A stretch of 22,390 nucleotides of DNA from a virus, in the IMG/VR virus record IMGVR_UViG_3300017779_000178, positions 1 through 22,390 of that record; one strand, 5' to 3'. Of the stretch, positions 4,002 through 21,251 are shown piece after piece; the first letter of the stretch is position 1, and every line of letters starts with the position of its first letter. Both the position numbers and the translations under genes were made by a program. The notes under the pieces are model-generated. The model did not search any database, had not been told where the DNA came from, and was given only the letters and a program-made list of their open reading frames with translations.

Positions 4002-5625
4002 ATCTAGGGGTAGCTGTTAAGTAATCGAGCCGGTCTCGCCAAGAAGGAGCCTTGTAAATGGGGGTCTGATAGCTGGCGAACTCGGTCATCATCAAACCAA
4101 GCCATGCCAACGCATCAACTTGGTCGTCGTGGACACCGTTGGGGAAACGCAACATCTCAGCCACTAACGGGCCGGTGAACACTTCGTCCTTGGGAAACCA
4201 CACCATGCCCTGCTGCATCCGGCCTTGAATGGCGCGGGCTCGGGCTTCTTTATCGCGACGTCCTGTCTTCAGGTCTTTGATAAATGCTTCATACAGACCG
4301 CGCTCTCGGATCCGTTTCTCTAGGAACGGGCCCAACGCCATCTCGATATGACCTTTCTCAATGCCGATCATCGAGGGCTTCCACTCTTCGTAAAGATCTA
4401 GGATCCGCTCGACAATCTCAAAGCCGTCAAAGCGTCCGCGTACAACGTCCACAATGAACAACTCGTCAAATTCGTTTACGCCAATAACCATGCCGACCGA
4501 ATAGTCGTTACGGTCGTTTTTACCAATGGCTAAGTCCCACGCGCAGTAGTACCGCATGGCGTCAAAGTCGACGTCATCGGCTTCGTAGTACTGGATCATG
4601 TCGCGGGTAAAGTAGTCACCGTCATCTGCGACGGGATTCTGCTGATACAAAGCTGACCAATCTCTAGGGCCTACGGCCTTTCGTATACGGTCTAGTGATA
4701 CAACGTCGTAACGCTCTGGGTGCAGGGCATCACCAGAGTCGCGGAACTCTTCGTCTTCTTCAGCAATCGCGGGGTAACGGACAACCTCCCAGTCGTCTCC
4801 ACCCTCGGTGGTGGCTTTTAGTAGACGGCCCGCGAGGTCATCGTCATGCCACCGAGTAAGAATGACCAGTACACCACCGCCAGGAGCAAGCCTTGTATAC
4901 GCCGTCGACGTATACCAGTCCCAGTTAGCATCACGATTATTTTGGCTCTCAGCATCTTCTCTGTTCTTTACCGGATCATCAATTACTAGGATGTGTGCGC
5001 CCTTACCAGTGATACCACCACCCACACCAGCAGCGACAAAGCCACCGCCGCTAGTAGTGAGCCAAGCCTCGGCTGACTGAGATTCTGGATCAAGGCGCGT
5101 ATCGAAGGCCGTTTTGTAACTAGGCTCTCTAAGTAGTCCACGAACTTTTCGACTGAATCCCATAGCAAGCGAACCCGAGTACGAACATGAAATAAACTCG
5201 TGTTGAGGGTTCCTGCCAAGGTGCCAAGCCGGAAACGCAATCGACGCCAAAGTTGATTTGCCGTGTCGCGGAGGTAAGAAAAGCATAAGTCTAGGCGACT
5301 CTTTCGCCACAACCTTCCTACTAAATTCTTCAAGTCTTCTACAAACATCTTTATGCACCCATCCTGCTTGGTAATCGGGGCTGAACCGCTCAACGAACGG
5401 TAACAACCGCTTTCGAGTCAGGAACCGTAGTGCTAGCTCGGCTCTTGCTTTGTCTTCAACCGATTGCGCCTCTGTTACTTCTTCTTCTACAGGCGCAGTG
5501 GCAGCCGGTATCGACTCCACCTCGTCGGCCTTGCAGTAAACACAAAATCCATCTCGCCCTGAGTACAGGGTCTCGGGGTGCAGGTTCTTGCACCGTTTAC
5601 ATTCCTGCATTGGAATGTCAGTCAT
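3979..5625 (-). CDS. terL: Terminase large subunit (packaging ATPase-nuclease)
   Basis: A 548-aa packaging motor that hydrolyses ATP to pump DNA through the portal and cuts concatemers. The ATPase domain has a Walker A motif PPRHGKST (Lys about 123) and Walker B HILVIDDP (Asp 216-217), with LTRWHDDDLAGRL as coupling motif. The C-terminal RNase H-like nuclease shows CAWDLAIGKNDRNDYS with a metal-binding Asp, a GIEKGH block and the terminal VHDDQVDALAW motif. The chosen ATG at 5625 overlaps the small terminase stop by 8 bases (ATGACTGA); an upstream in-frame start at 5664 would overlap further and is less likely. Unusual: the N-terminus carries two CxxC knuckles (Cys 9/12 and 28/31), a probable zinc ribbon not needed for the core motor, followed by a Glu-rich linker. 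Confidence 0.96.
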   Translation of the reverse strand: MTDIPMQECKRCKNLHPETLYSGRDGFCVYCKADEVESIPAATAPVEEEVTEAQSVEDKARAELALRFLTRKRLLPFVERFSPDYQAGWVHKDVCRRLEEFSRKVVAKESPRLMLFLPPRHGKSTLASIAFPAWHLGRNPQHEFISCSYSGSLAMGFSRKVRGLLREPSYKTAFDTRLDPESQSAEAWLTTSGGGFVAAGVGGGITGKGAHILVIDDPVKNREDAESQNNRDANWDWYTSTAYTRLAPGGGVLVILTRWHDDDLAGRLLKATTEGGDDWEVVRYPAIAEEDEEFRDSGDALHPERYDVVSLDRIRKAVGPRDWSALYQQNPVADDGDYFTRDMIQYYEADDVDFDAMRYYCAWDLAIGKNDRNDYSVGMVIGVNEFDELFIVDVVRGRFDGFEIVERILDLYEEWKPSMIGIEKGHIEMALGPFLEKRIRERGLYEAFIKDLKTGRRDKEARARAIQGRMQQGMVWFPKDEVFTGPLVAEMLRFPNGVHDDQVDALAWLGLMMTEFASYQTPIYKAPSWRDRLDYLTATPRSKSAMSS

Positions 5626-6133
5626 CGGCTTGTGGCTCCAGATACGACGTATCCTTGCCCGCAATCTTCAACAGATCTTCGTCCGACATACGCTCCAACT
5701 GCTTGGGCGTAGCGTCTATGTTGATATTTACCTGCGTCGCGTTGTCTGGGGTACTTAGCCCATGCAACTTGACCAGACTGTCCACGGTATTCTTCATCTC
5801 AGTCGCAGTAGCCGACGCCTGATACGCGTCCATGTACATCACGTGGGCGTTTGCGGCGGTGAACTTCACTTCTTCACGCATCTGCTCGCGGAAATACGCC
5901 AACGCCTTGGCAACATTGGGCCGTTTGACCGTGTCATACACAGCATTGGCGCTGGTATACCCCGCACCACGGCCTGCCGCAGCAAGCGTCATCCCACTAA
6001 GAACAAGCATGACTAACTTCTCTTGCTGAACAGTAAGCTCTCCCATCTCCAAACCCATGTAGGGCATATGAGATTCGAACTCAGCTACATCAGTGATAGG
6101 TTCTTGCGGCTGTTTGCTCAGCGATTTCTCCAC
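5618..6133 (-). CDS. terS: Terminase small subunit
   Basis: A 171-aa protein expected to bind the packaging site and recruit TerL. After an N-terminal tail, LTVQQEKLVMLVLSGMTLAAAGRGAGY forms (in two halves) a helix-turn-helix-like segment at about residues 33-60, followed by PNVAKALAYFREQM, the pattern of TerS families with DNA-binding N-domains. A helical central region would drive oligomerisation and an acidic tail contacts TerL. The start is a GTG with GAGGA 7 bases upstream; this makes it overlap the previous gene by 44 bases. An internal ATG (6067) is the alternative without overlap. It directly precedes terL with an 8-bp overlap, implying coupled translation. Confidence 0.88.
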   Translation of the reverse strand: MEKSLSKQPQEPITDVAEFESHMPYMGLEMGELTVQQEKLVMLVLSGMTLAAAGRGAGYTSANAVYDTVKRPNVAKALAYFREQMREEVKFTAANAHVMYMDAYQASATATEMKNTVDSLVKLHGLSTPDNATQVNINIDATPKQLERMSDEDLLKIAGKDTSYLEPQADD

Positions 6134-6338
6134 TAAGATCCTCGTCTAAAAATACGAATAGCGGGGCATAGTCTGCGAACCCCTCTTCGGTAAGATTTTC
6201 CAGTACGTCATCGACCGAAAACTGTGTTTCGACCAAACGTGCGTCATAGACCAGCACCTCTTCCCCCGTAGGGCCGATACCAGTGCCAAGAAGCGCGTGT
6301 TCCATACCTTCAATGGATATCATTTTGACCTTGGACAT
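6090..6338 (-). CDS. Small conserved phage protein of unknown function
   Basis: An acidic 82-aa protein. The segment ISIEGMEHALLGTG followed by a VYDARLVE strand and a helical SVDDVLENLTEEGFADY block resembles a small hypothetical family I recall from many phages (IEGxDEALLG ... VYDxxK), function unknown. The first ATG (6338) has no SD and sits 7 bases from a dyad operator; the second, at 6323 (MISIEG), has AAGG 5 bases upstream and may be the true start, giving 77 aa. The gene overlaps terS and belongs to the packaging operon. It follows the HNH gene, with the palindrome lying between them. Confidence 0.75.
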   Translation of the reverse strand: MSKVKMISIEGMEHALLGTGIGPTGEEVLVYDARLVETQFSVDDVLENLTEEGFADYAPLFVFLDEDLSGEIAEQTAARTYH

Positions 6339-6345
6339 TGGCGAA

Positions 6346-6362
6346 TAGTACTAGTTGTACTA
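6346..6362. promoter_or_regulatory. Dyad site 1: TAGTAC-TAGTT-GTACTA (perfect)
   Basis: Perfect inverted repeat; the arms extend to 8 bp (AATAGTAC/GTACTATT, 6344-6364). It lies between the HNH gene, whose TAA stop it touches, and the first gene of the terminase set (ATG at 6338). It is one of ten sites with the same 6-5-6 geometry; see findings. Confidence 0.75.
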
Positions 6363-6363
6363 T

Positions 6364-6858
6364 TTAGTCACAAGACTTTTCATAGACGCTCTTGATCCAG
6401 AAATAAAACTCTCCCTCGTCCATTTTGTGCTTCATTATATTCACCGCATAACAGACCAAACGGATGTTATCGATGGTGTAGCCGATACGGGGGTTTATAC
6501 GGTCGATACTGGCGTTGAAGTCTTTGTGGCCCGAACCGTCACGGTGGTGTGTCATCACTAATCCAGTTGCTACGCACCTACCATTCTGGGCTTCCCACAG
6601 GTCTACAAGATCATCAACAGTAATTTCCCATGTGAAGCCCGCTTTAACGCGGACATGCTTGGAACTGGAGTGCAGTTTAGTCAGAAATGCGCGGTAGTTA
6701 GAGCTGCCGTGCTCACGAGCATGGATCTGGGTACAGGTTTTACACTTTGTTCGTGGTTTGGTACCGGAGACAAGCCTGTCGGTATAAAACCGGTCGAGGG
6801 TCAGCTGCTGTTTGCACACTCTGCAGTAATAAAGATTCTCATCGTTGTCGGCGGTCAT
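6364..6858 (-). CDS. HNH endonuclease
   Basis: A 164-aa protein with an N-terminal zinc ribbon (Cys 12, 15, 39, 42: YCRVC ... KCKTC) and a C-terminal HNH fold. The HNH part shows GRCVATG, then NASIDRINPRIGY, TIDNIRLVCYAVN and the final MK, matching the phage HNH signature (SIDRID-x-GYT-x-NIQLVC-x-N-x-MK). The metal site is predicted from Asp 119, Asn 131 and Asn 140. It nicks or cuts DNA. It is the first gene of the leftward packaging operon, where HNH proteins are known to assist terminase at cos sites in some phages; a free-standing homing nuclease is the alternative. The start has AAGG 5 bases upstream. A degenerate dyad (6888-6904) lies 30 bases upstream. Confidence 0.88.
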   Translation of the reverse strand: MTADNDENLYYCRVCKQQLTLDRFYTDRLVSGTKPRTKCKTCTQIHAREHGSSNYRAFLTKLHSSSKHVRVKAGFTWEITVDDLVDLWEAQNGRCVATGLVMTHHRDGSGHKDFNASIDRINPRIGYTIDNIRLVCYAVNIMKHKMDEGEFYFWIKSVYEKSCD

Positions 6859-11833: not shown

Positions 11834-12052
11834 ATGATGTCTGACATTTTCGTAAAAGTAGTACGCGTCCCTGGCGCTGTAACCGAAGTCGCCTTATCTG
11901 CAGGCGCAACCGTAGCTGACGCTCTGTCTGCTGCTGGTATCTCTTCCACTGGCTCTGAGTCCATACGTGTTGGCGCTGCTGACGCAACCGTGGACACCTC
12001 TGTCGGTGACGGAGACCGCGTTGTGATCGCGCAAGGTGCCAAAGGCAACTAA
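11834..12052 (+). CDS. Ubiquitin-like modifier (MoaD/ThiS-type beta-grasp)
   Basis: A 72-aa protein with the beta-grasp pattern: strand VKVVRVPG, strand EVALSAGATVADALSAAGI (the classic TVxDAL helix start), strand IRVGAADATVDT, then GDGDRVVIAQGAKGN. The DGDxV turn before the last strand is the ThiS/MoaD and ubiquitin-like hallmark. It ends Lys-Gly-Asn, not Gly-Gly; Asn would have to be removed to expose Gly for adenylation, if it follows the usual route. GGAG lies 5 bases before the first ATG; a second ATG follows at 11837. It leads the E1-JAMM-E2 set, so it is read as a protein modifier; a sulfur carrier (with no E2) is the alternative. Confidence 0.8.
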   Translation: MMSDIFVKVVRVPGAVTEVALSAGATVADALSAAGISSTGSESIRVGAADATVDTSVGDGDRVVIAQGAKGN

Positions 12053-12076
12053 ACGACCACACCACTTTCGGGGTAT

Positions 12077-12098
12077 GGCCCATCAGTAATGGTGGGCC
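12077..12098 (+). other. GNRA-capped RNA hairpin between modifier and E1 genes
   Basis: GGCCCATCA pairs with TGGTGGGCC (one G-U) around a GTAA loop, a GNRA tetraloop as RNA. No T-run follows. It may set relative expression of the highly needed modifier and the E1 enzyme by processing or attenuation; inference. Confidence 0.65.
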
Positions 12099-12167
12099 TC
12101 CATCGGACGCTCGGAGTATGCCAACCCTACTGCCCTGCCCCACCCACTTACCGGCTAAGGAGATCCA

Positions 12168-12857
12168 ATGATGCTCTCAACAATACGCCACGACGCAGTG
12201 TTCCGTGCATACGACTACAAGGATTATCCAATCCACATTGTCGGTGCCGGTGCCACTGGCTCCCGCGTGTTCATGTCACTACTGGAGCTTGGTCTGACCA
12301 ATCTGCATGTGTATGACTTCGACATCGTAGAGCCGCACAACCTCGCCAACCAAGCGTTCCTGTTCGAGCACGTCGGCTTGCCCAAAGTCAAAGCGTTGCA
12401 GAACCTAGCATCGCTCAAGCTCGGCGTGCCTGAAGACAAGCTACCAATGCAGTTCATCAACGAACGCATCGACCAACGACAGTTCGACGGCTTTCTATTC
12501 TTGCTGACCGATACGATGGCATCGCGTCGCAAGATCATCGGCAACCAATCGACTGGCCCTGACAGTATGTTGCTCCATGTCTTCGAGACCCGCATGGCCT
12601 CGTCTCATGGCAACGTGTACCACTTCTCGCCAGCCAACCCACACCAACGTCAAGCGTGGTTCGACTCGCTCATCAGCGACGACGAAGGCGAAGTGTCGCC
12701 CTGCGGTACCAGCATATCCGTAGGCGCTACTGCTTCGCTCATTGCCAACCTAGCCGTGTGGGAGTTCATGAACTTCCTACTCGATGACGGTTGTGCAACA
12801 GCACAGCTCGACGTGTTCTTCAAACCCATGCTACTCACGACCAGAGAACAAATATGA
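12168..12857 (+). CDS. E1-like activating enzyme (ThiF/MoeB/UBA superfamily)
   Basis: A 229-aa protein. The Rossmann ATP site is GAGATGS (Gly 26, 28, 31), followed by the E1 signature YDFDIVEPHNLANQ (Asp 50, Asp 52, Glu 55, Asn 58) and VGLPKVKAL (Lys 73). The usual NLxRQ Arg is replaced (NLANQ). A later FLLTDTMASRR provides the second Asp region. SPCGTS places a candidate catalytic Cys at 179, followed by the dimer helix GATASLIANLAVWEFM. The family adenylates a modifier C-terminus and forms a thioester. No Cys-x2-Cys zinc site is seen. It overlaps the JAMM gene by 4 bases (ATGA). AAGGAG lies 5 bases before the ATG. Confidence 0.92.
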   Translation: MMLSTIRHDAVFRAYDYKDYPIHIVGAGATGSRVFMSLLELGLTNLHVYDFDIVEPHNLANQAFLFEHVGLPKVKALQNLASLKLGVPEDKLPMQFINERIDQRQFDGFLFLLTDTMASRRKIIGNQSTGPDSMLLHVFETRMASSHGNVYHFSPANPHQRQAWFDSLISDDEGEVSPCGTSISVGATASLIANLAVWEFMNFLLDDGCATAQLDVFFKPMLLTTREQI

Positions 12858-13657
12858 ATTTCTATACCCAACCAAGCGGTGCAGACATCGATAGCTCATC
12901 GATGGAGCCCGCAATCACCCCGCTCTATGAAGAGCCACCCATGCCGGTTGTGTACTACACGGCTCAAGTTAAAGCCGTAATCAACCACCTTGTCGCAGTA
13001 AACACTGCCGAGGTTGGCTGGCTCGGCCTCGTCAAACAGGTTAACGACAACGACTACTTGGTCTACAAGTTGTACGTGCCCAAACAGACTGTCCACTCAG
13101 CCGAGACAGACATTGATTCGGACGCAATGGCTAACCTTGGTATCGAGATCACTGAGGCTGGCTTGCCTGCCGAGGATCTCTACTACTGGGGCCACAGCCA
13201 CGTAAGCATGCAGGTTTCACCCAGCGGCCAAGACGAAACACAAATCGAAGAGTTTCTAGAAGCTGGCTGCAAACACTTTATACGTGGCATTTACAACAAG
13301 CAGGGCCACAGCAAGGTGGATGTGTATGACGTGCCGCGCAATGTCATCTACCAGTGCGTTCGTGAAGACGTTGAGGTCAGCCTAACTGCCGAGGAAGCCG
13401 AGCACCTCGACGCGGTGATCAAAGCCAACGTTACTAAAGCACCAACACCGGTTTACAAAAAGACACAGTTCAAACGCAGCCCTGTCATCAGCAACCTGCC
13501 TGCAAACAACTACCACAGCCAGATGCAGCAGCCGTTCTATTACAGCAACACGTTTGACCACCTCGACGATGTCGCCATCGAAGACTACAGCGATGACTAC
13601 AACGACGGGGCTGACGATTTCTTAGACGGATACGACCCATCAAGGAGAATTCAATGA
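12854..13657 (+). CDS. JAMM/MPN+ metallopeptidase (deconjugase or modifier processor)
   Basis: A 267-aa protein. Its N-terminal 170 residues form a JAB1/MPN domain with a complete JAMM motif: Glu 53 (NTAEVGWLG), His 114 and His 116 (GHSHVSM), Ser 124 and Asp 127 (SPSGQD), in the exact H-x-H-x7-S-x2-D spacing. Zinc and the catalytic water are therefore expected, so isopeptidase or C-terminal processing is likely. The remaining 100 residues are polar with an acidic, Asp/Tyr-rich tail (DDYNDGADDFLDGYD) and no known fold. The start overlaps the E1 stop. Likely roles are trimming the modifier's terminal Asn and removing modifier from targets, by analogy with bacterial Bil and CBASS Cap3 peptidases. 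Confidence 0.93.
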   Translation: MNFYTQPSGADIDSSSMEPAITPLYEEPPMPVVYYTAQVKAVINHLVAVNTAEVGWLGLVKQVNDNDYLVYKLYVPKQTVHSAETDIDSDAMANLGIEITEAGLPAEDLYYWGHSHVSMQVSPSGQDETQIEEFLEAGCKHFIRGIYNKQGHSKVDVYDVPRNVIYQCVREDVEVSLTAEEAEHLDAVIKANVTKAPTPVYKKTQFKRSPVISNLPANNYHSQMQQPFYYSNTFDHLDDVAIEDYSDDYNDGADDFLDGYDPSRRIQ

Positions 13658-14562
13658 GCTGGGCACATCAACAAACACTCACACTCAATCCAGGCAAAGA
13701 GCTTCAAGCGGAGTTGGAACTTCAGCTTGAGCTTGCAAAGACAGAAGTAGAAATAAAACGCGACATTGTTCGTCAACATAAGCTCAGGTCGCAGCATTCA
13801 ACCAATCAATGGATTCGAATACGAGACGCTTACAACCAGCCCCACTCATGGCTGGTGTATCAGCTCACGGGTGGTCATACACACTTAAAAGAGCGGATAG
13901 AAGTGTTGATCAAGCACTATCACCAAACAGCGGACGAGCAGTGCCGTGACAACTATGAAGCTCTACAAAGAGCAGAAGCACGCTACGAAGCCGTCCAAGA
14001 GCGTGAGGCGCAAGCTAAAATGAGACTCAGCATGGTACGCGATCAAGCTGACATCGTTGCCAGCAGAGACATGCTCGACAGATCATTGCGCGACAATGCT
14101 TACTACGTACCTGACTCTTTGCAGTTGTCCTTCAACAACAACCCACATCAATACCGAGTCACCTTCAGCCTGCGTAACATCATCGCCATCAACCCTCGTG
14201 GTAACAATCCCATTGAGATTCCGCCTCTGCGTATCGACTTTTATATCAACCCAACCGGCAGTCACGATCTTGTAGTTCGTAACGACATCGGTCGCCCTTA
14301 CTGGACAGATCGGTACAAAGGCTACTCCGAGGTTCCGTTGTTGCACCCACACATGACCGGTGAAACGACGCTGTGCTTGGGCGACTTTGGTGAAGGTGTT
14401 ACCGAAGCAATCAGTGAAGGTGACTTCGTTACTGCTATCACAATACTCACCATGTTCTTTCAGCAATACGATCCTGATGATTCGGCTGGCCTGCATTTTA
14501 ATGCGTGGCCCGAAGCTACGTTTGATGAGGATCGGCATATCGCTGACTACGCAGACGCTTAG
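13654..14562 (+). CDS. E2-like (UBC-fold) conjugating enzyme with N-terminal coiled coil
   Basis: A 302-aa protein overlapping the JAMM stop by 4 bases. Residues about 13-150 are a long charged coiled coil (KELQAELELQLELAKTEVE onward). The C-terminal domain is E2-like: strands in PHQYRVTFSLRNII and IEIPPLRIDFYINP, then the E2 signature HPHMTGETTLCLGDFGEG with His 231/233 and the predicted catalytic Cys 241, and a final helix EGDFVTAITILTMFFQQY. HPH-x7-Cys-x-Gly is the prokaryotic E2/UBC pattern. Full-length E2s are about 150 aa, so the coiled coil is an added module, perhaps for dimerisation or target choice. Recognition rests on motif, predicted strands and neighbours. Confidence 0.85.
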   Translation: MSWAHQQTLTLNPGKELQAELELQLELAKTEVEIKRDIVRQHKLRSQHSTNQWIRIRDAYNQPHSWLVYQLTGGHTHLKERIEVLIKHYHQTADEQCRDNYEALQRAEARYEAVQEREAQAKMRLSMVRDQADIVASRDMLDRSLRDNAYYVPDSLQLSFNNNPHQYRVTFSLRNIIAINPRGNNPIEIPPLRIDFYINPTGSHDLVVRNDIGRPYWTDRYKGYSEVPLLHPHMTGETTLCLGDFGEGVTEAISEGDFVTAITILTMFFQQYDPDDSAGLHFNAWPEATFDEDRHIADYADA

Positions 14563-14752: not shown

Positions 14753-14774
14753 CGATGAGGAGGACAAAGACTAA
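14640..14774 (+). CDS. Nested small acidic helical protein (44 aa)
   Basis: A 44-aa frame, MKQLELKLTLENEELELFTE then IALQIQQHLKTLANQQ and an acidic end. It overlaps most of the 60-aa frame above in another register and joins the next gene by TAATG. It has only GGGA upstream as a weak SD; coupling to the 60-aa gene would help. The composition is more protein-like than the overlapped tail, so this is the better candidate for that stretch. Confidence 0.55.
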   Translation: MKQLELKLTLENEELELFTEIALQIQQHLKTLANQQPDDEEDKD

Positions 14775-15058
14775 TGTTCACAGCAGGACTAATCGCAGCA
14801 GCAGGCTTACTGTTTCTGCTATTCAAGTTCGGCATCCGCCGAGTCATTACCTATGACATCTTCTTTGATGTCGCTATCACTGCCATCTTGATGGTGTCAC
14901 TTGCTGGCACATTCAGCGGCATGATGGCTGCTCTCTTTGGCGGCCTGATAGTATCAATCGTACTATTCATCATGAAACGTACGATGCGCCACGAAAAATT
15001 ATCACTGGTTAAGACCAAATCATTTCCATATCGGAGGTTCGCATGGACGGAACAGTAA
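14774..15058 (+). CDS. Small membrane protein (three hydrophobic helices)
   Basis: A 94-aa protein with AGGAGG about 11 bases before the ATG and TAATG coupling to the previous frame. Helices lie at about residues 2-19, 30-50 and 51-70 (LIAAAGLLFLLF, VAITAILMVSLAG, ALFGGLIVSIVLFIM), followed by a basic tail. It overlaps the next gene by 16 bases. Function unknown; it recalls other short membrane proteins of this cluster. A dyad site (14949-14965) is embedded in its third helix codons. Confidence 0.75.
   Translation: MFTAGLIAAAGLLFLLFKFGIRRVITYDIFFDVAITAILMVSLAGTFSGMMAALFGGLIVSIVLFIMKRTMRHEKLSLVKTKSFPYRRFAWTEQ
14949..14965. promoter_or_regulatory. Dyad site 6: TAGTAT-CAATC-GTACTA
   Basis: One arm mismatch, 5-bp spacer, inside the membrane-protein gene and about 80 bases before the zinc-ribbon gene. 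It is in coding sequence, as sites 3 and 5 are. Confidence 0.55.
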
Positions 15059-15945: not shown

Positions 15946-17751
15946 ATGCTAGTAACCCTAGACTTTGAAACGTACTTTGATCCCAAGGTAAGCCTCACCA
16001 AGATGACGACGATGGAGTACGTCAAGCACCCCATGTTCAAAGTGTGGGGTGTTGGTATCAAAATAGATACCGGCCCAACCGAATGGTTCGGTGAAGACGA
16101 AGTGGAAGAAGCGCTTAATGATATCGAGTGGGACAAAGCCCACCTGCTCTGCCACAACACTCCATTCGACGGCTACATTCTTACTCAACTGTACGAGCTA
16201 GTACCCGCCTACTACTTAGACACGGCAGCTATGGCCCGTGGTAGATGGCCAGGGGAAACGTCTCGACTCAAGGATGTAGCCGTCCGATGCTTCCCAGACG
16301 ACCCAGACATGCGTAAAGGTGAAGAGCTAGTCACAGCGAAAGGTATCTATGACCTGCCACCAGACATAGAAGATTCGCTTGCTGGCTACTGTATACAAGA
16401 CGTCGATCTGACCTATGCGATTTACAACCAGCTACTGCCTGCTTACCCCCAGACCGAACTGGACATCATCGATCTCACATGCCGAATGTTTTGTGAGCCG
16501 AAGATGACGCTCAACCGATGCAAGCTCGAGTCGTTTGTCGAGTCTGAGCGTGCGCACTCGGAGCAAGCTATCGAGAAATCTGGTCTGGATCGTAAGGTCT
16601 TGGCCAGTAATCAGCAGTTTTCAGCATGGGCTGAAGAGCAAGGACTGACAGTACCAACAAAAACCAGTCCATCCACGGGCAACAAGATACCTGCCTTTGG
16701 TAAAAATGACGCTGCGTATAAGCAGTGGCAACAGCAGCACCCTGAATACAATCATGTATGGCAGGGCAGAGAAGCAGTAAAGAGCAGACTCAATGAAACA
16801 CGGGCACAACGTTTCATTGATTGTGCTAACGCAGGTAGTCGACTACCCGCACCCCTTCGCTACTACGCTGCTCATACCGGTAGGTTTGGAGGTACCGATA
16901 AGATCAACCTTCAGAACCTGCCTCGCAACAGCGAACTACGTAAAGCGATAGAAGCACCGTCCGGTGGCTTCCTCTACGTAGCGGATCTATCAAACATCGA
17001 GTCTCGTATGTTGGCATGGCTTGCCGAAGAAGATGAGCTACTGCAAATGTACCGAGACGGCACCGATGTTTACTGTGATTTTGCATCCAAGGTTTACGGA
17101 CGCACGATCACTAAAGACGATGCAATCGAACGCTTTGTAGGTAAGACGGCAATACTAGGTCTTGGCTACGGTATGGGCGCTCAGAAGTTCCAAGCCACAT
17201 TGAAGCAAGCCAACATAGAAATGGATTTCTTTGAGGCCAAAACTATCGTCGATGAATACCGAACGGCTTATCCACACATCCCCAACCTGTGGAATCGGCT
17301 CAACGCTTTACTTACTGAGTCTTCGAACATGGGCAGGGTGCAGGATGACGACGCTTTCGGTTACGCCTACAGGTGTATCCAAGCGGCACCCAATTCGATT
17401 CTCCTCCCGAATGGAATGTCGCTTCGATACCCTTTTTTAACCTGCACAAAAGCCGGTTTAACGTATCAATCTATGGGCAAACCCGTCTCTACCTATGGCG
17501 GGCGCATCACCGAGAACGTTGTACAAGCACTGGCTCGCATTGTCTTATGCGATCACATGCTGCAAATACAGCGCCGACCAGAATTTGAAGTTGTGCTGAC
17601 AGTACATGACGAAGTCATCGCCATAAGTCAGCAGGACAACCCAGAAGATAAATTGAACAGCATGATCGATATCATGCGCCAGCCCCCTAAGTGGGCACCT
17701 GACCTACCGCTCGATGCAGAAGGCGGCTGGGACGTTAGCTACAGCAAATGA
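15946..17751 (+). CDS. Family A DNA polymerase with 3'-5' exonuclease, no 5' nuclease
   Basis: A 601-aa replicative polymerase. The proofreading exonuclease has LDFET (Asp 6, Glu 8), HNTPFDGY (His 70, Asn 71, Asp 75) and YCIQDVDLT (Asp 152). The polymerase palm and fingers have motif A ADLSNIESRMLAW (Asp 347), motif B KTAILGLGYG (Lys 400, Tyr 408) and motif C VHDEV (His 554, Asp 555). Motif A is DLSNIESR where Pol I has DYSQIELR, a variant seen in phage enzymes. The 5'-3' exonuclease of Pol I is absent, as usual for phage. The SD is weak (AAGG about 14 bases upstream), so coupling from the preceding gene is likely. The stop overlaps the next ATG. Confidence 0.96.
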   Translation: MLVTLDFETYFDPKVSLTKMTTMEYVKHPMFKVWGVGIKIDTGPTEWFGEDEVEEALNDIEWDKAHLLCHNTPFDGYILTQLYELVPAYYLDTAAMARGRWPGETSRLKDVAVRCFPDDPDMRKGEELVTAKGIYDLPPDIEDSLAGYCIQDVDLTYAIYNQLLPAYPQTELDIIDLTCRMFCEPKMTLNRCKLESFVESERAHSEQAIEKSGLDRKVLASNQQFSAWAEEQGLTVPTKTSPSTGNKIPAFGKNDAAYKQWQQQHPEYNHVWQGREAVKSRLNETRAQRFIDCANAGSRLPAPLRYYAAHTGRFGGTDKINLQNLPRNSELRKAIEAPSGGFLYVADLSNIESRMLAWLAEEDELLQMYRDGTDVYCDFASKVYGRTITKDDAIERFVGKTAILGLGYGMGAQKFQATLKQANIEMDFFEAKTIVDEYRTAYPHIPNLWNRLNALLTESSNMGRVQDDDAFGYAYRCIQAAPNSILLPNGMSLRYPFLTCTKAGLTYQSMGKPVSTYGGRITENVVQALARIVLCDHMLQIQRRPEFEVVLTVHDEVIAISQQDNPEDKLNSMIDIMRQPPKWAPDLPLDAEGGWDVSYSK

Positions 17752-17968: not shown

Positions 17969-20458
17969 ATGCAGCTGAACTTCCTATCCGCCAGTAATGG
18001 CCTACCCCTTACCAAGACTTTCAGCGCTACCGGCTCTACTCCATACCCACTTGTCACTCACGTCGACAGCCATACGTTCACTGTTGATACGATCTCAGAC
18101 TTCCATGACACGCTGCGCCAGCAATCACAGCTAGGTCATTGCTTACTCAAAGGTGACCTCAAGCAGCCGCTCGTCAACGAGTCCCGCAAAGGCAAGTCAA
18201 ACCGCAATGCTTATACAGACTTGCTTGTGCTCGACATCGACGGCCTGCGCATACCCAATACAAAGTTCTCAACCGGCCCGCTCACCACGGTTCATATCGA
18301 GCACATTGCCAACATGATCGTATCCGCCCTGCCCGATGAGCTTAACGACGTTAGCTTTATCGCTCAGGCATCCAGTTCTTTTGGCATGAAGTCGGATCGA
18401 TTCTCGCTGCACCTATTCTTTATGCTCACTGTGCCGCTACCACCTAAGACGGTGAAGTTATGGCTACAGCACGTTAACCACGCAGATACCTTATTCGAAG
18501 AACAGATCGAGCTGTCCGTCAACGGACACTCTCTCAAGTACGTGGTGGACACCAGTGTTGCTGATAACAGCAAACTGATATTCATCGCACCACCAACGTT
18601 TGCTGATAAGACTCTTGACCCGTTTCAAGACTCTGATCAACGGATCGTATTGGTAAACAAAGGACAAGAGACCTTAGACCTTGCACCTTTGATGAGTGGC
18701 ATTAGCCGAGAAGCCATGTTCAGTGTCAGCAGAGCCAAGAAAGACGCGCTGCGTGACACGGCTGGCATGAACAGAAAGAAAGAAAAAATACAGATAGCAC
18801 AAGTTAATTATCGCAACGAAGAAATCCTAACCAACCCAGACAAAGTATCGATTACGGTATCGGACGACAGTAGCTCGCCATTCATCCGCTGTAATATCAA
18901 CGGTGGTGACAGCGGTGCGTACTACTTCAACCTCGATGCTCCGACCTACATGTACAACTTCAAAGACGAACCGATCTTTGAGATTGAGAAAGCCGATCCA
19001 GACTTCTATCTCAGCATCTTTGAGATGTTTGACGATCACATCAGCGAGTCCGGTAAGGCTTCCGTTCCTGTAGCAATCCGTGATTTTTACACAGACATCT
19101 ACTACTGCGGCCTGTTTGACCCAAACATTCAGCAGTTCAGTGACAACTACCCGCTAACTCCGCTAGCTAAAGGGTCTATCGACAGCTTCATGCTCAGTCA
19201 CGGACGCCCTGTACCTGACTTCATACCTGACGCCCGAGTCATCTTCGACCCAACGCAGAAGGAAGAAGCCATACAGCTGCAGAACACGCCGTACCACATC
19301 AATATGTATCGGCAGACCGACTACATGCTCAACGCAACTGAACCTGATAGGCCTTTGACCTTAGGCCAAGGGCCAAAGATCCAAGACAAGTGTCCTCTCA
19401 CCTATAAGCTGATACATCACATACTGGGCAATGGTGACGAGGAGCTTGAACGCTTCCTTAATTGGCTGGCTTACATATACCAAACACGACAGAAGGCTGG
19501 CACTGCTTGGGTGCTGACGGGTGTACCAGGCACCGGTAAGGGTCTGTTCTATAGCCGCATACTTCGACCGCTGTTTGGTGAAGCGCACGTACCAATGAAG
19601 GCGCTGCAGAACATCGAAGAGCAATTCAATTTGTACATGCGCACTGCCCTCTTCCTCATTGTCGATGAGTTCCACATGAGCAGTGCTAGCCAAGGCACTA
19701 TTAAGATTGCAGACAAACTCAAGAACCAGATTACTGAGAACACGACTACGATCCGCGCAATGCGTAGCAACCAGACTGAAGTAAAGAACTTTACGAACTT
19801 TATATTCCTGACCAACCGGCTCGATGCCGTGAAGATCGAAGACGGAGATCGCCGGTACAACATTGCACCTCGACAAGAAACCAAACTCGAAGTCGCTCAC
19901 CCTGAGGTCATTGAACGCATCGATGAGCTTCACAAAGAGTTACATGACTTCGCAGGCATCTTGAAAACATACGAAGTCAACACGCGTCTCGTCAGAACCT
20001 GCGTCAACAACGATGCGAAAACCGAGATGCGACACGTCAGCATGTCTGTGTTCGAAGACTTCTGTCGCGCCTTGAAAGAAGGCGAGCTTGAGTTCTTCAC
20101 CGACGTGTTACAGATAGAAACGACCAACGTCATGGGTAGCGGTGACGTACTACCCGCTCAACGTTTCGTTAAGAGTTGGTTAGCTAAGAGCAGCGAAGAC
20201 TACATGATGATCAAGGACGAACATCTACGCGTTGTCTTTCACGCTCTGACCGAACAAACGCCACGCATCAACGCAAAAGAATTTGGCAAACGCCTTGATC
20301 GCAACGGCCTAACTAAGACACGCAAGCGTCAGTCTGGTGCAGACCGCGACGCCAACCCAATACGCGGTATAGAAGTGAACTGGAAGATATCCGATGAAAG
20401 TCGTGACGAACTGATCGACACCTACTTCAACACCAAAGATAAACAATTAGTCGCTTAG
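17969..20458 (+). CDS. Primase-helicase (AEP-like primase fused to SF3-type helicase)
   Basis: An 829-aa protein. N-terminal archaeo-eukaryotic primase-like domain: LLVLDIDG (Asp 89/91), RFSLHLFF (His 148), and VVDTSVADNSKLIFIAPP (Asp 194), in the AEP motif order. The C-terminal helicase has Walker A GVPGTGKG (Lys 524), Walker B LFLIVDEFH (Asp 566, Glu 567), then FIFLTNR and the DGDRRYN arginine finger (superfamily III/D5 type). It would unwind DNA and prime both strands. The ATG at 17969 has GGAGG about 8 bases upstream; the upstream TTG (17954) lies ahead of that SD and is rejected. Primase plus helicase in one chain supplies the fork beside the polymerase; no separate loader is visible. 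Confidence 0.93.
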   Translation: MQLNFLSASNGLPLTKTFSATGSTPYPLVTHVDSHTFTVDTISDFHDTLRQQSQLGHCLLKGDLKQPLVNESRKGKSNRNAYTDLLVLDIDGLRIPNTKFSTGPLTTVHIEHIANMIVSALPDELNDVSFIAQASSSFGMKSDRFSLHLFFMLTVPLPPKTVKLWLQHVNHADTLFEEQIELSVNGHSLKYVVDTSVADNSKLIFIAPPTFADKTLDPFQDSDQRIVLVNKGQETLDLAPLMSGISREAMFSVSRAKKDALRDTAGMNRKKEKIQIAQVNYRNEEILTNPDKVSITVSDDSSSPFIRCNINGGDSGAYYFNLDAPTYMYNFKDEPIFEIEKADPDFYLSIFEMFDDHISESGKASVPVAIRDFYTDIYYCGLFDPNIQQFSDNYPLTPLAKGSIDSFMLSHGRPVPDFIPDARVIFDPTQKEEAIQLQNTPYHINMYRQTDYMLNATEPDRPLTLGQGPKIQDKCPLTYKLIHHILGNGDEELERFLNWLAYIYQTRQKAGTAWVLTGVPGTGKGLFYSRILRPLFGEAHVPMKALQNIEEQFNLYMRTALFLIVDEFHMSSASQGTIKIADKLKNQITENTTTIRAMRSNQTEVKNFTNFIFLTNRLDAVKIEDGDRRYNIAPRQETKLEVAHPEVIERIDELHKELHDFAGILKTYEVNTRLVRTCVNNDAKTEMRHVSMSVFEDFCRALKEGELEFFTDVLQIETTNVMGSGDVLPAQRFVKSWLAKSSEDYMMIKDEHLRVVFHALTEQTPRINAKEFGKRLDRNGLTKTRKRQSGADRDANPIRGIEVNWKISDESRDELIDTYFNTKDKQLVA

Positions 20459-20504: not shown

Positions 20505-21251
20505 ATGCAATTAACCCAAGACGAAAGACCAGACCTTGAGAGCTTAACCGCCAAGCCGGACAAGCTAGGCCTTACCCCTGCATGGTCTTACTCTGCGCTC
20601 AAAGTATTCGAAGAGTGTCCCTACCGCACCTACATCAGCCGCGTTAAGAAGGTACGAGAGCCATCAAGCCCCGCTGCAGACCGTGGCACAGCTATCCACC
20701 AAGAAGCTGAAGACTACGTCTGTGGCAAGTTAGGTGAGATGCCAGACTCGCTAAAGAAGTTCGAAGACGACTTCGAACAATTACGTGCGATGTACGCCGA
20801 TGCCAAAGTCGAACTAGAAGGTGAATGGGGCTTCGATCTTGACTGGCAACCTGTCGGTTGGATGGAACCTAAGACGTGGGCACGCATCAAGCTCGATGCT
20901 CTCGTCAATGAAGACGAGCAATCTTGCCGCGTCATCGACTACAAGACCGGCAAAAAATGGGGCAACGAGATAACGCACGGACAGCAGTGCTTGTTGTACG
21001 CCATCGGCACCTTCTTCCGTTACCCGCACATCGAGTTCGCACAAACCGAGCTGTGGTATCTCGACAAGGGCGAAAAAACAATCAAGCAGTTCACCCGTGC
21101 AGAAGCAATGGAGTTTGCTCCAGGTTTCTACAAACGCGCTGTCGCTATGACTACGTGTACAGACTATGAACCTAAGCCTAGTAAGAACAACTGCAAGTGG
21201 TGTTCATACAAAAAAGGTGAGCCACCTGAGTGTTACTGGGGAGTTAGCTAA
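20505..21251 (+). CDS. Cas4/AddB-like PD-(D/E)XK exonuclease
   Basis: A 248-aa nuclease of the RecB/Cas4 family. The start SYSALKVFEECPYR is the AddB/Cas4 entry motif, followed by GTAIHQEAED (His 65), KLDALV (Asp 131), VIDYKTG (Asp 145, Lys 147) and QCLLYA (Gln 161, Tyr 165). Cys 38 with Cys 230, 233 and 243 gives the one-plus-three Cys layout of an iron-sulphur cluster. It probably processes DNA ends for recombination or replication. CRISPR use is unlikely: no repeats or cas genes are present. The ATG has no strong SD; dyad site 9 is upstream. The gene is followed by a long inverted repeat. Confidence 0.92.
   Translation: MQLTQDERPDLESLTAKPDKLGLTPAWSYSALKVFEECPYRTYISRVKKVREPSSPAADRGTAIHQEAEDYVCGKLGEMPDSLKKFEDDFEQLRAMYADAKVELEGEWGFDLDWQPVGWMEPKTWARIKLDALVNEDEQSCRVIDYKTGKKWGNEITHGQQCLLYAIGTFFRYPHIEFAQTELWYLDKGEKTIKQFTRAEAMEFAPGFYKRAVAMTTCTDYEPKPSKNNCKWCSYKKGEPPECYWGVS

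Follow-up and report, generated by a model that had tools for sequence, protein, structure and literature searches.

A phage-encoded four-gene cassette resembling a ubiquitin-like tagging system

We examined a 22,390-nucleotide stretch of viral DNA (IMG/VR record IMGVR_UViG_3300017779_000178, positions 1 to 22,390), hereafter the window. At 11834-14562 the window carries four genes in one direction (+): a beta-grasp modifier (11834-12052; ATGATG start, 71 or 72 aa), a minimal E1 (12168-12857; 229 aa), a JAMM peptidase (12854-13657; 267 aa) and an E2-like protein (13654-14562). E1/JAMM and JAMM/E2 overlap by ATGA, whereas the modifier is separated from E1 by 115 bp, so that three genes overlap and the fourth does not, as in the original prediction. 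The intergenic stretch (12055-12167, +) contains a GGCCCATCA/TGGTGGGCC hairpin, and hairpins of unrelated sequence follow the modifier stop in most relatives, but this evidence is weak, as the whole stretch does not fold better than shuffles (z 0.78). A promoter/terminator scan gave nothing above chance. Further along the same strand lie genes for a family A DNA polymerase (15946-17751), a primase/SF3-type helicase (DUF5906; 17969-20458) and a PD-(D/E)XK exonuclease (20505-21251).

To assess each assignment independently, we combined family scans, profile searches, structure prediction and residue conservation. The AlphaFold model of the modifier (pLDDT 87.8) found C. subterraneum ubiquitin, SAMP1, MoaD and SUMO as its best PDB folds, and its profile matched SAMP2 at 4.5e-6. 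The protein ends in GAKG-N, with a predicted mature end at Gly70 (numbering from the second Met), and K69-G70 is invariant in 12 homologues. The E1 scored above the Pfam ThiF gathering cut-off (2.6e-17; 63 versus 28.1 bits), and its profile matched UBA5 as best PDB hit at 8e-17. It carries GAGATG, YDFD and SPCGTS motifs, with a predicted thioester Cys179, but no separate Cys domain, rhodanese or UFD. Residues G26, G28, D50, D52, N58, Q62, K73, D115, R120 and C179 are invariant in 17 diverse E1s, including a PRTRC ThiF. The JAMM protein carries Glu53, H114-S-H116, S124 and D127, and its HSH...S-G-x-D is invariant or nearly so in 17 JAMMs. Its profile matched RPN11 at 6e-7 and the C. subterraneum Rpn11 homologue, and the PADLOC JAB model matched at 1e-4.

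The E2 assignment proved more demanding. Single-protein scans of Pfam, PHROGs and NCBIfam gave nothing useful, and a first window-clade profile hit nothing relevant in PDB, with only weak hhalign support (P 0.011). After adding 18 diverse phages, a 24-phage profile matched ubiquitin-conjugating enzymes in PDB (best E 1.7e-4), with HPH-x7-C in register with HPN-x7-C. Consistent with this, hhalign gave 93% probability against E2s, with 0 of 200 shuffled controls reaching the score. The motif HPH231-233-x7-Cys241-x-G is invariant in 14 homologues, and H, P, H, C and G stay invariant in 24. The homology appears only with a broad profile, at modest significance. In the AlphaFold model, the UBC-like domain (14050-14562, +) has a predicted order of helix, four main strands, active-site segment and helices that fits a UBC domain, although Foldseek of the whole model against PDB and BFVD found no UBC match because a long N-terminal hairpin dominates. 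An extra E2 HMM match at 5564-6355 of sequence L127 has no HPH-C motif.

We next asked how widely the cassette is distributed. It is present in all 15 close IMG/VR relatives and all 10 testable helicase relatives (>=71% identity), and in none of 24 testable sister-clade contigs. A JAMM-only query found 32 more diverse phage loci, with E1 in 30 (the other two are truncated), E2 in 25, modifier in 23 and all four in 15, in three gene orders. Sequence L016 likewise has all four genes in another order. Among the 23 modifiers, 21 end in K-G-[G/A] and the other two in [Q/E]-G-G, with tails from none to about 20 residues. Tandem copies are joined at KGG in locus L137 and at KGN in L016. These tails and fusions suggest that the JAMM probably matures the tag, although the KG-Asn end of the window modifier is unusual. 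Xanthomonas phage PhiXhv-15 encodes a modifier ending exactly in GG, and no JAMM was detected in its genome. Related cassettes occur in cultured Xanthomonas, Erwinia and Flavobacterium phages, and neighboring genes serve replication or DNA metabolism in the window clade and several other phages. E2 searches in isolate phages found nothing, and a pattern-based E1 search of genome contigs, which finds close relatives only, found no relative.

To ask whether the cassette is maintained by selection, we compared substitution patterns across the operon. Purifying selection on modifier, E1 and JAMM is strong (dN/dS 0.05-0.22), so these are real genes and not chance ORFs. The N-terminal arm of the E2 (13654-14049, +; residues 1-132), a predicted long helical hairpin with helices at 13-61 and 76-129, instead evolves near-neutrally or faster while the catalytic parts are conserved, with a nonsynonymous excess over the rest of the operon (Fisher p 2e-4 and 7e-7). 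This pattern suggests a role in target choice, although only two strain pairs were compared and the variation could reflect relaxed constraint or recombination rather than target-driven selection.

The original prediction, that a full modifier/E1/JAMM/E2 set sits inside a phage replication cluster, is supported. It named several possible roles without choosing among them. We favor a self-contained ubiquitin-like conjugation pathway, probably expressed with the replication genes, by which the phage may tag proteins during infection. In the absence of biochemical evidence, we place the probability of this reading at about 0.72. In the scheme we infer, the JAMM trims the tail (here one Asn) after the Lys-Gly end of the modifier. 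The minimal E1, probably a homodimer like MoeB/UBA5, would then adenylate the freed Gly and take it as a thioester on Cys179, before the modifier passes to Cys241 of the E2. The E2 would place it on a lysine of a target bound by the variable helical arm, without a separate E3, and the JAMM could take it off again. No E3 or target is identified, but the target is most likely a host protein (a defense or takeover target), because the arm evolves fast while the machinery is conserved; a phage replication or virion protein is the main alternative.

We considered three other explanations. The first, which we regard as unlikely, is that the cassette interferes with host ubiquitin-like defense, for example with the JAMM stripping host conjugates and the modifier, E1 and E2 acting as decoys or competitors. 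Such host systems exist (Bil, PMC12135933; CBASS conjugation, PMC10097602), the JAMM is intact, and PADLOC E1-E2 and JAB models match weakly. However, an antagonist would need only the JAMM, whereas catalytic residues of E1, JAMM and E2 are conserved, the genes are under purifying selection, and the modifier and E2 are not recognized as Bil or Cap2 proteins. Slightly less probable is an inter-phage weapon carried for superinfection exclusion, spoiling competing phages as Bil does for the host. The enzyme complement is the same as Bil, and a fast-evolving arm would fit a moving phage target, but the cassette lies beside polymerase and helicase genes rather than in a recognizable lysogeny region, is present in every testable member of its clade, and no integrase was noticed in the available part of the genome, where not every ORF was scanned. 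Least likely is a sulfur-carrier system of the ThiS/MoaD/CysO type with JAMM releasing the carrier: the E1 is ThiF-like and the modifier is SAMP2/MoaD-like, but a conserved E2 with invariant HPH-x7-Cys accompanies them and no rhodanese or sulfurtransferase was found among the neighbors scanned.

A broader reading remains tentative: that a large family of bacteriophages encodes complete ubiquitin-like conjugation pathways, with E2s carrying an HPx-x7-C active site like eukaryotic E2s and fused to rapidly changing target-recognition arms or zinc-finger tails, used to tag and reprogram host proteins during genome replication. These would form an offensive phage counterpart to bacterial ubiquitin-like immunity and a reservoir of primitive E2/E3 architectures. 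Full ubiquitin-like cassettes are known as bacterial defense operons and in plasmid PRTRC loci, and no report of a phage-encoded full cassette was found in the open-access library searched, which omits most subscription journals and all preprints. A phage-owned version reverses the usual direction of attack and offers many divergent natural systems in which to ask how E1-E2-JAMM relays choose targets without an E3.

Finally, we compared the cassette with known systems one by one. Like Bil (BilABCD), it has modifier, E2, JAMM and E1 as four separate genes, but its modifier has one beta-grasp domain rather than two, its E1 is a single adenylation domain without inactive half or Cys domain, and its E2 lacks the C-E-H-H motif of BilB (features from PMC11354881). 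E1, E2 and JAMM chemistry is shared with CBASS Cap2/Cap3, 6A-MBL and Bub, and the E1 adenylation domain matches Cap2 and the 458 aa BubCD chain (at 184-293). It does not fit CBASS, defined by an E2-E1 fusion next to a CD-NTase: E1 and E2 are separate genes, and no CD-NTase was noticed among the window ORFs, not all of which were scanned. It has its own small modifier, and no metallo-beta-lactamase was noticed among the ORFs scanned. The modifier and JAMM recall the archaeal SAMP2/JAMM1 and C. subterraneum ubiquitin systems, as the nearest modifier by profile is SAMP2 from the JAMM1 complex and the JAMM is Rpn11-like, but the cassette is phage-borne and its E2 belongs to a separate family known here only from phages. 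Lambda TAPI/TAPK also pairs a phage-encoded beta-grasp protein with a JAB (PMC1779556), without E1 or E2 and in tail assembly rather than a replication cluster. PRTRC, which we infer to be operon type 6d (PMC1779556), is likewise a mobile-element set of beta-grasp protein, E2, JAB and ThiF. On Azospira plasmid pAZI09, its modifier ends in GTKG (compare GAKG-N) and it lies beside a replication gene (dnaN). However, the window E1 falls far below the PRTRC_ThiF (TIGR03736) cut-off (27.1 versus 144.75 bits), gene order differs, and the window E2 has no match to Prok-E2_D, the PRTRC_B family, which Azospira PRTRC_B matches at 1.7e-46, and has His upstream rather than downstream of Cys. A ParB neighbor elsewhere hints at common ancestry with PRTRC.

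The 22,390-base window is an entire IMG/VR virus record. Four same-strand ORFs encode, in order, the modifier (11834-12052), E1 (12168-12857), JAMM (12854-13657) and E2 (13654-14562). E1-JAMM and JAMM-E2 overlap by ATGA, whereas the modifier lies 115 bp upstream. A hairpin follows the modifier stop codon (12079-12100 and equivalent positions) in most relatives with unrelated sequences, perhaps raising modifier output over the enzymes, although in the window it was not significant against shuffles. In relatives L003, L004, L007 and L012, a conserved 53-56 aa ORF (NPKLFVLG...EKLNDxG...FQIRVEY) sits between modifier and E1, and is absent from the window's 115-bp gap. Genes from about 0.2 to 6.9 kb are on the minus strand and include terminase and portal. 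Downstream of the cassette are a family A DNA polymerase, a DUF5906/SF3-type primase-helicase, a PD-(D/E)XK exonuclease and the start of a helicase. The nearest isolate phages by helicase are Pseudomonas phages KPP25/phiR18 and Aeromonas phage phiA008, the last also nearest by terminase. No relative of the window E1 was found in them, and two JAMM searches found none in phiA008 or KPP25.

To establish what each gene is, we combined family scans, homologue profiles and predicted structures. The E1 matches Pfam ThiF at 2.6e-17. A 17-member profile finds UBA5 as its best PDB hit (8e-17), along with MoeB, ThiF, Cap2 and BubCD, and Cys179 and the adenylation residues are invariant. The JAMM has no significant Pfam hit alone, but 8 of 17 homologues match Prok-JAB, the profile finds RPN11 at 6e-7, and HSH and D127 are invariant. 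The AlphaFold model of the modifier has a mean pLDDT of 87.8, and its best folds are C. subterraneum ubiquitin, SAMP1, MoaD and SUMO, with Foldseek probability 1.00 and query TM-scores of about 0.65-0.79, though E-values are only about 3e-3 at best. The modifier profile finds SAMP2 at 4.5e-6. Extra small proteins resembling the modifier lie upstream of it in some relatives (L012:3286-3770, L014:3990-4205 and L006:4228-4617; for example MKAFITRIPHGYTEIEF...DGDR in L012).

The E2 gave no single-sequence match. The AlphaFold model built from 14 sequences (mean pLDDT 84.7) shows a long helical hairpin (13-129), then a helix, four main strands, the HPH...C segment and two to three helices. The original prediction had made the E2 essential to its reading of the cassette. 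A profile of the window clade matched no E2 in PDB, and UQ_con is the Pfam family that most members of the broader 24-phage set match, though weakly (4 of 24, best 0.007). We therefore accept UBC homology, while noting that an unobstructed structural match is still missing.

To examine how widely the cassette is distributed, we first searched by E1. This found 15 close relatives with all four genes in the window's order, plus the more distant loci L016 and L017, where the order is modifier-E2-JAMM-E1. Searching by helicase gave 67 loci. By our count, all 10 with at least 71% helicase identity and enough upstream DNA carry the whole cassette, while none of 24 sister-clade loci (52-58% identity, at least 7 kb upstream) do. 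Near where the window's clade has the cassette, the sister clade instead carries a three-gene module comprising a MoxR-type AAA ATPase, an unknown middle protein and a DUF2201 metallopeptidase/VWA protein (L065:4700-7521, L091:4291-7106 and about 30 other sister-clade loci), between a small membrane-protein gene (homologue of window 14774-15058) and the polymerase. The two modules were never seen together. Since this is one clade against its sister, it is one evolutionary difference, not repeated evidence.

A JAMM-only query (from L017) found 32 loci on contigs up to 182 kb. E1 was found in 30 (two are truncated), E2 in 25, modifier in 23 and all four in 15, in the orders modifier-E2-JAMM-E1, modifier-E2-E1-JAMM and E1-modifier-E2-JAMM. 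Repeated co-occurrence in shuffled orders is strong evidence for one pathway. More distant E1 relatives lie in Xanthomonas phages PhiXhv-12/15/16, Erwinia phage Ep032, Flavobacterium phages (FpV4 and others), crAss-like phage cr106_1 and Dulem virus 41. The PhiXhv-15 E2 aligns to the window-clade profile at 1.8e-4, whereas for FpV4, cr106_1 and Dulem 41 the E2 assignment rests only on position and an HxH...C motif and is tentative.

Comparison of modifier C-termini pointed to a possible maturation step. Window-clade modifiers end GAKGN (GAKGNG in relatives L005/L006), and the 23 others end in KG[G/A] or [QE]GG with tails of 0 to about 20 residues. Two loci, L137 (2257-2670) and L016 (1743-2519), have tandem modifier genes whose units are joined at KGG or KGN, resembling polyubiquitin precursors. 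The PRTRC_C modifier ends GTKG. The simplest reading is JAMM cleavage after the conserved Gly. Consistent with this, PhiXhv-15, whose modifier ends in bare GG, has no JAMM detectable by two searches, though an empty search is weak evidence and locus L136 also has a bare end and keeps a JAMM.

We then compared selection across the four genes. dN/dS is 0.13-0.22 for the modifier, 0.05-0.11 for E1 and 0.07-0.20 for JAMM, but 0.25-0.69 for E2 where it could be estimated. Within E2 the catalytic half is constrained, whereas the hairpin shows 10.5 nonsynonymous to 0.5 synonymous changes (window vs L001) and 64 to 18 (L003 vs L004). Fisher tests against the rest of the operon give p 1.9e-4 and 7e-7, with the caveat that counts are rounded and changes are not independent events. 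Recombination and relaxed constraint are possible. With an adaptable arm on a conserved enzyme, target choice by the arm is the natural hypothesis. At the other end of the protein, the E2s of L016 (2688-4019) and locus L018 (3316-5994) have cysteine-rich, zinc-finger-like C-terminal tails, which might act as built-in E3-like parts, although only a weak Pfam double zinc ribbon hit was obtained for L016.

Taken as a whole, the cassette appears to work like a ubiquitin-like conjugation pathway, but by the features tested it is not a member of Bil, CBASS or PRTRC. PRTRC is nearest in setting and modifier ending. Among the papers searched, the known phage case is the TAPI/TAPK pair without E1 or E2 (PMC1779556), and we found no report of a phage-encoded full cassette in a literature search that excluded preprints and most subscription journals, such that novelty is provisional.

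Finally, we inspected the genome setting of the cassettes. Among the selected neighbours scanned, some of which had no match, cassettes lie beside polymerase/helicase (window clade), D5-type primase-helicases (loci L124 and L128), ParB (L138), thymidylate synthase (L143), a beta-glucosyltransferase relative (L141), UDG and primase or toprim genes (cr106_1, Dulem 41, FpV4), topoisomerase and ligase (PhiXhv-15) and dnaN (PRTRC plasmid). Phage early genes cluster anyway, so this supports timing more than mechanism. In L138, the ParB-like protein (5570-6442) comes directly after the E1, recalling the ParB/ThiF link of PRTRC plasmids.
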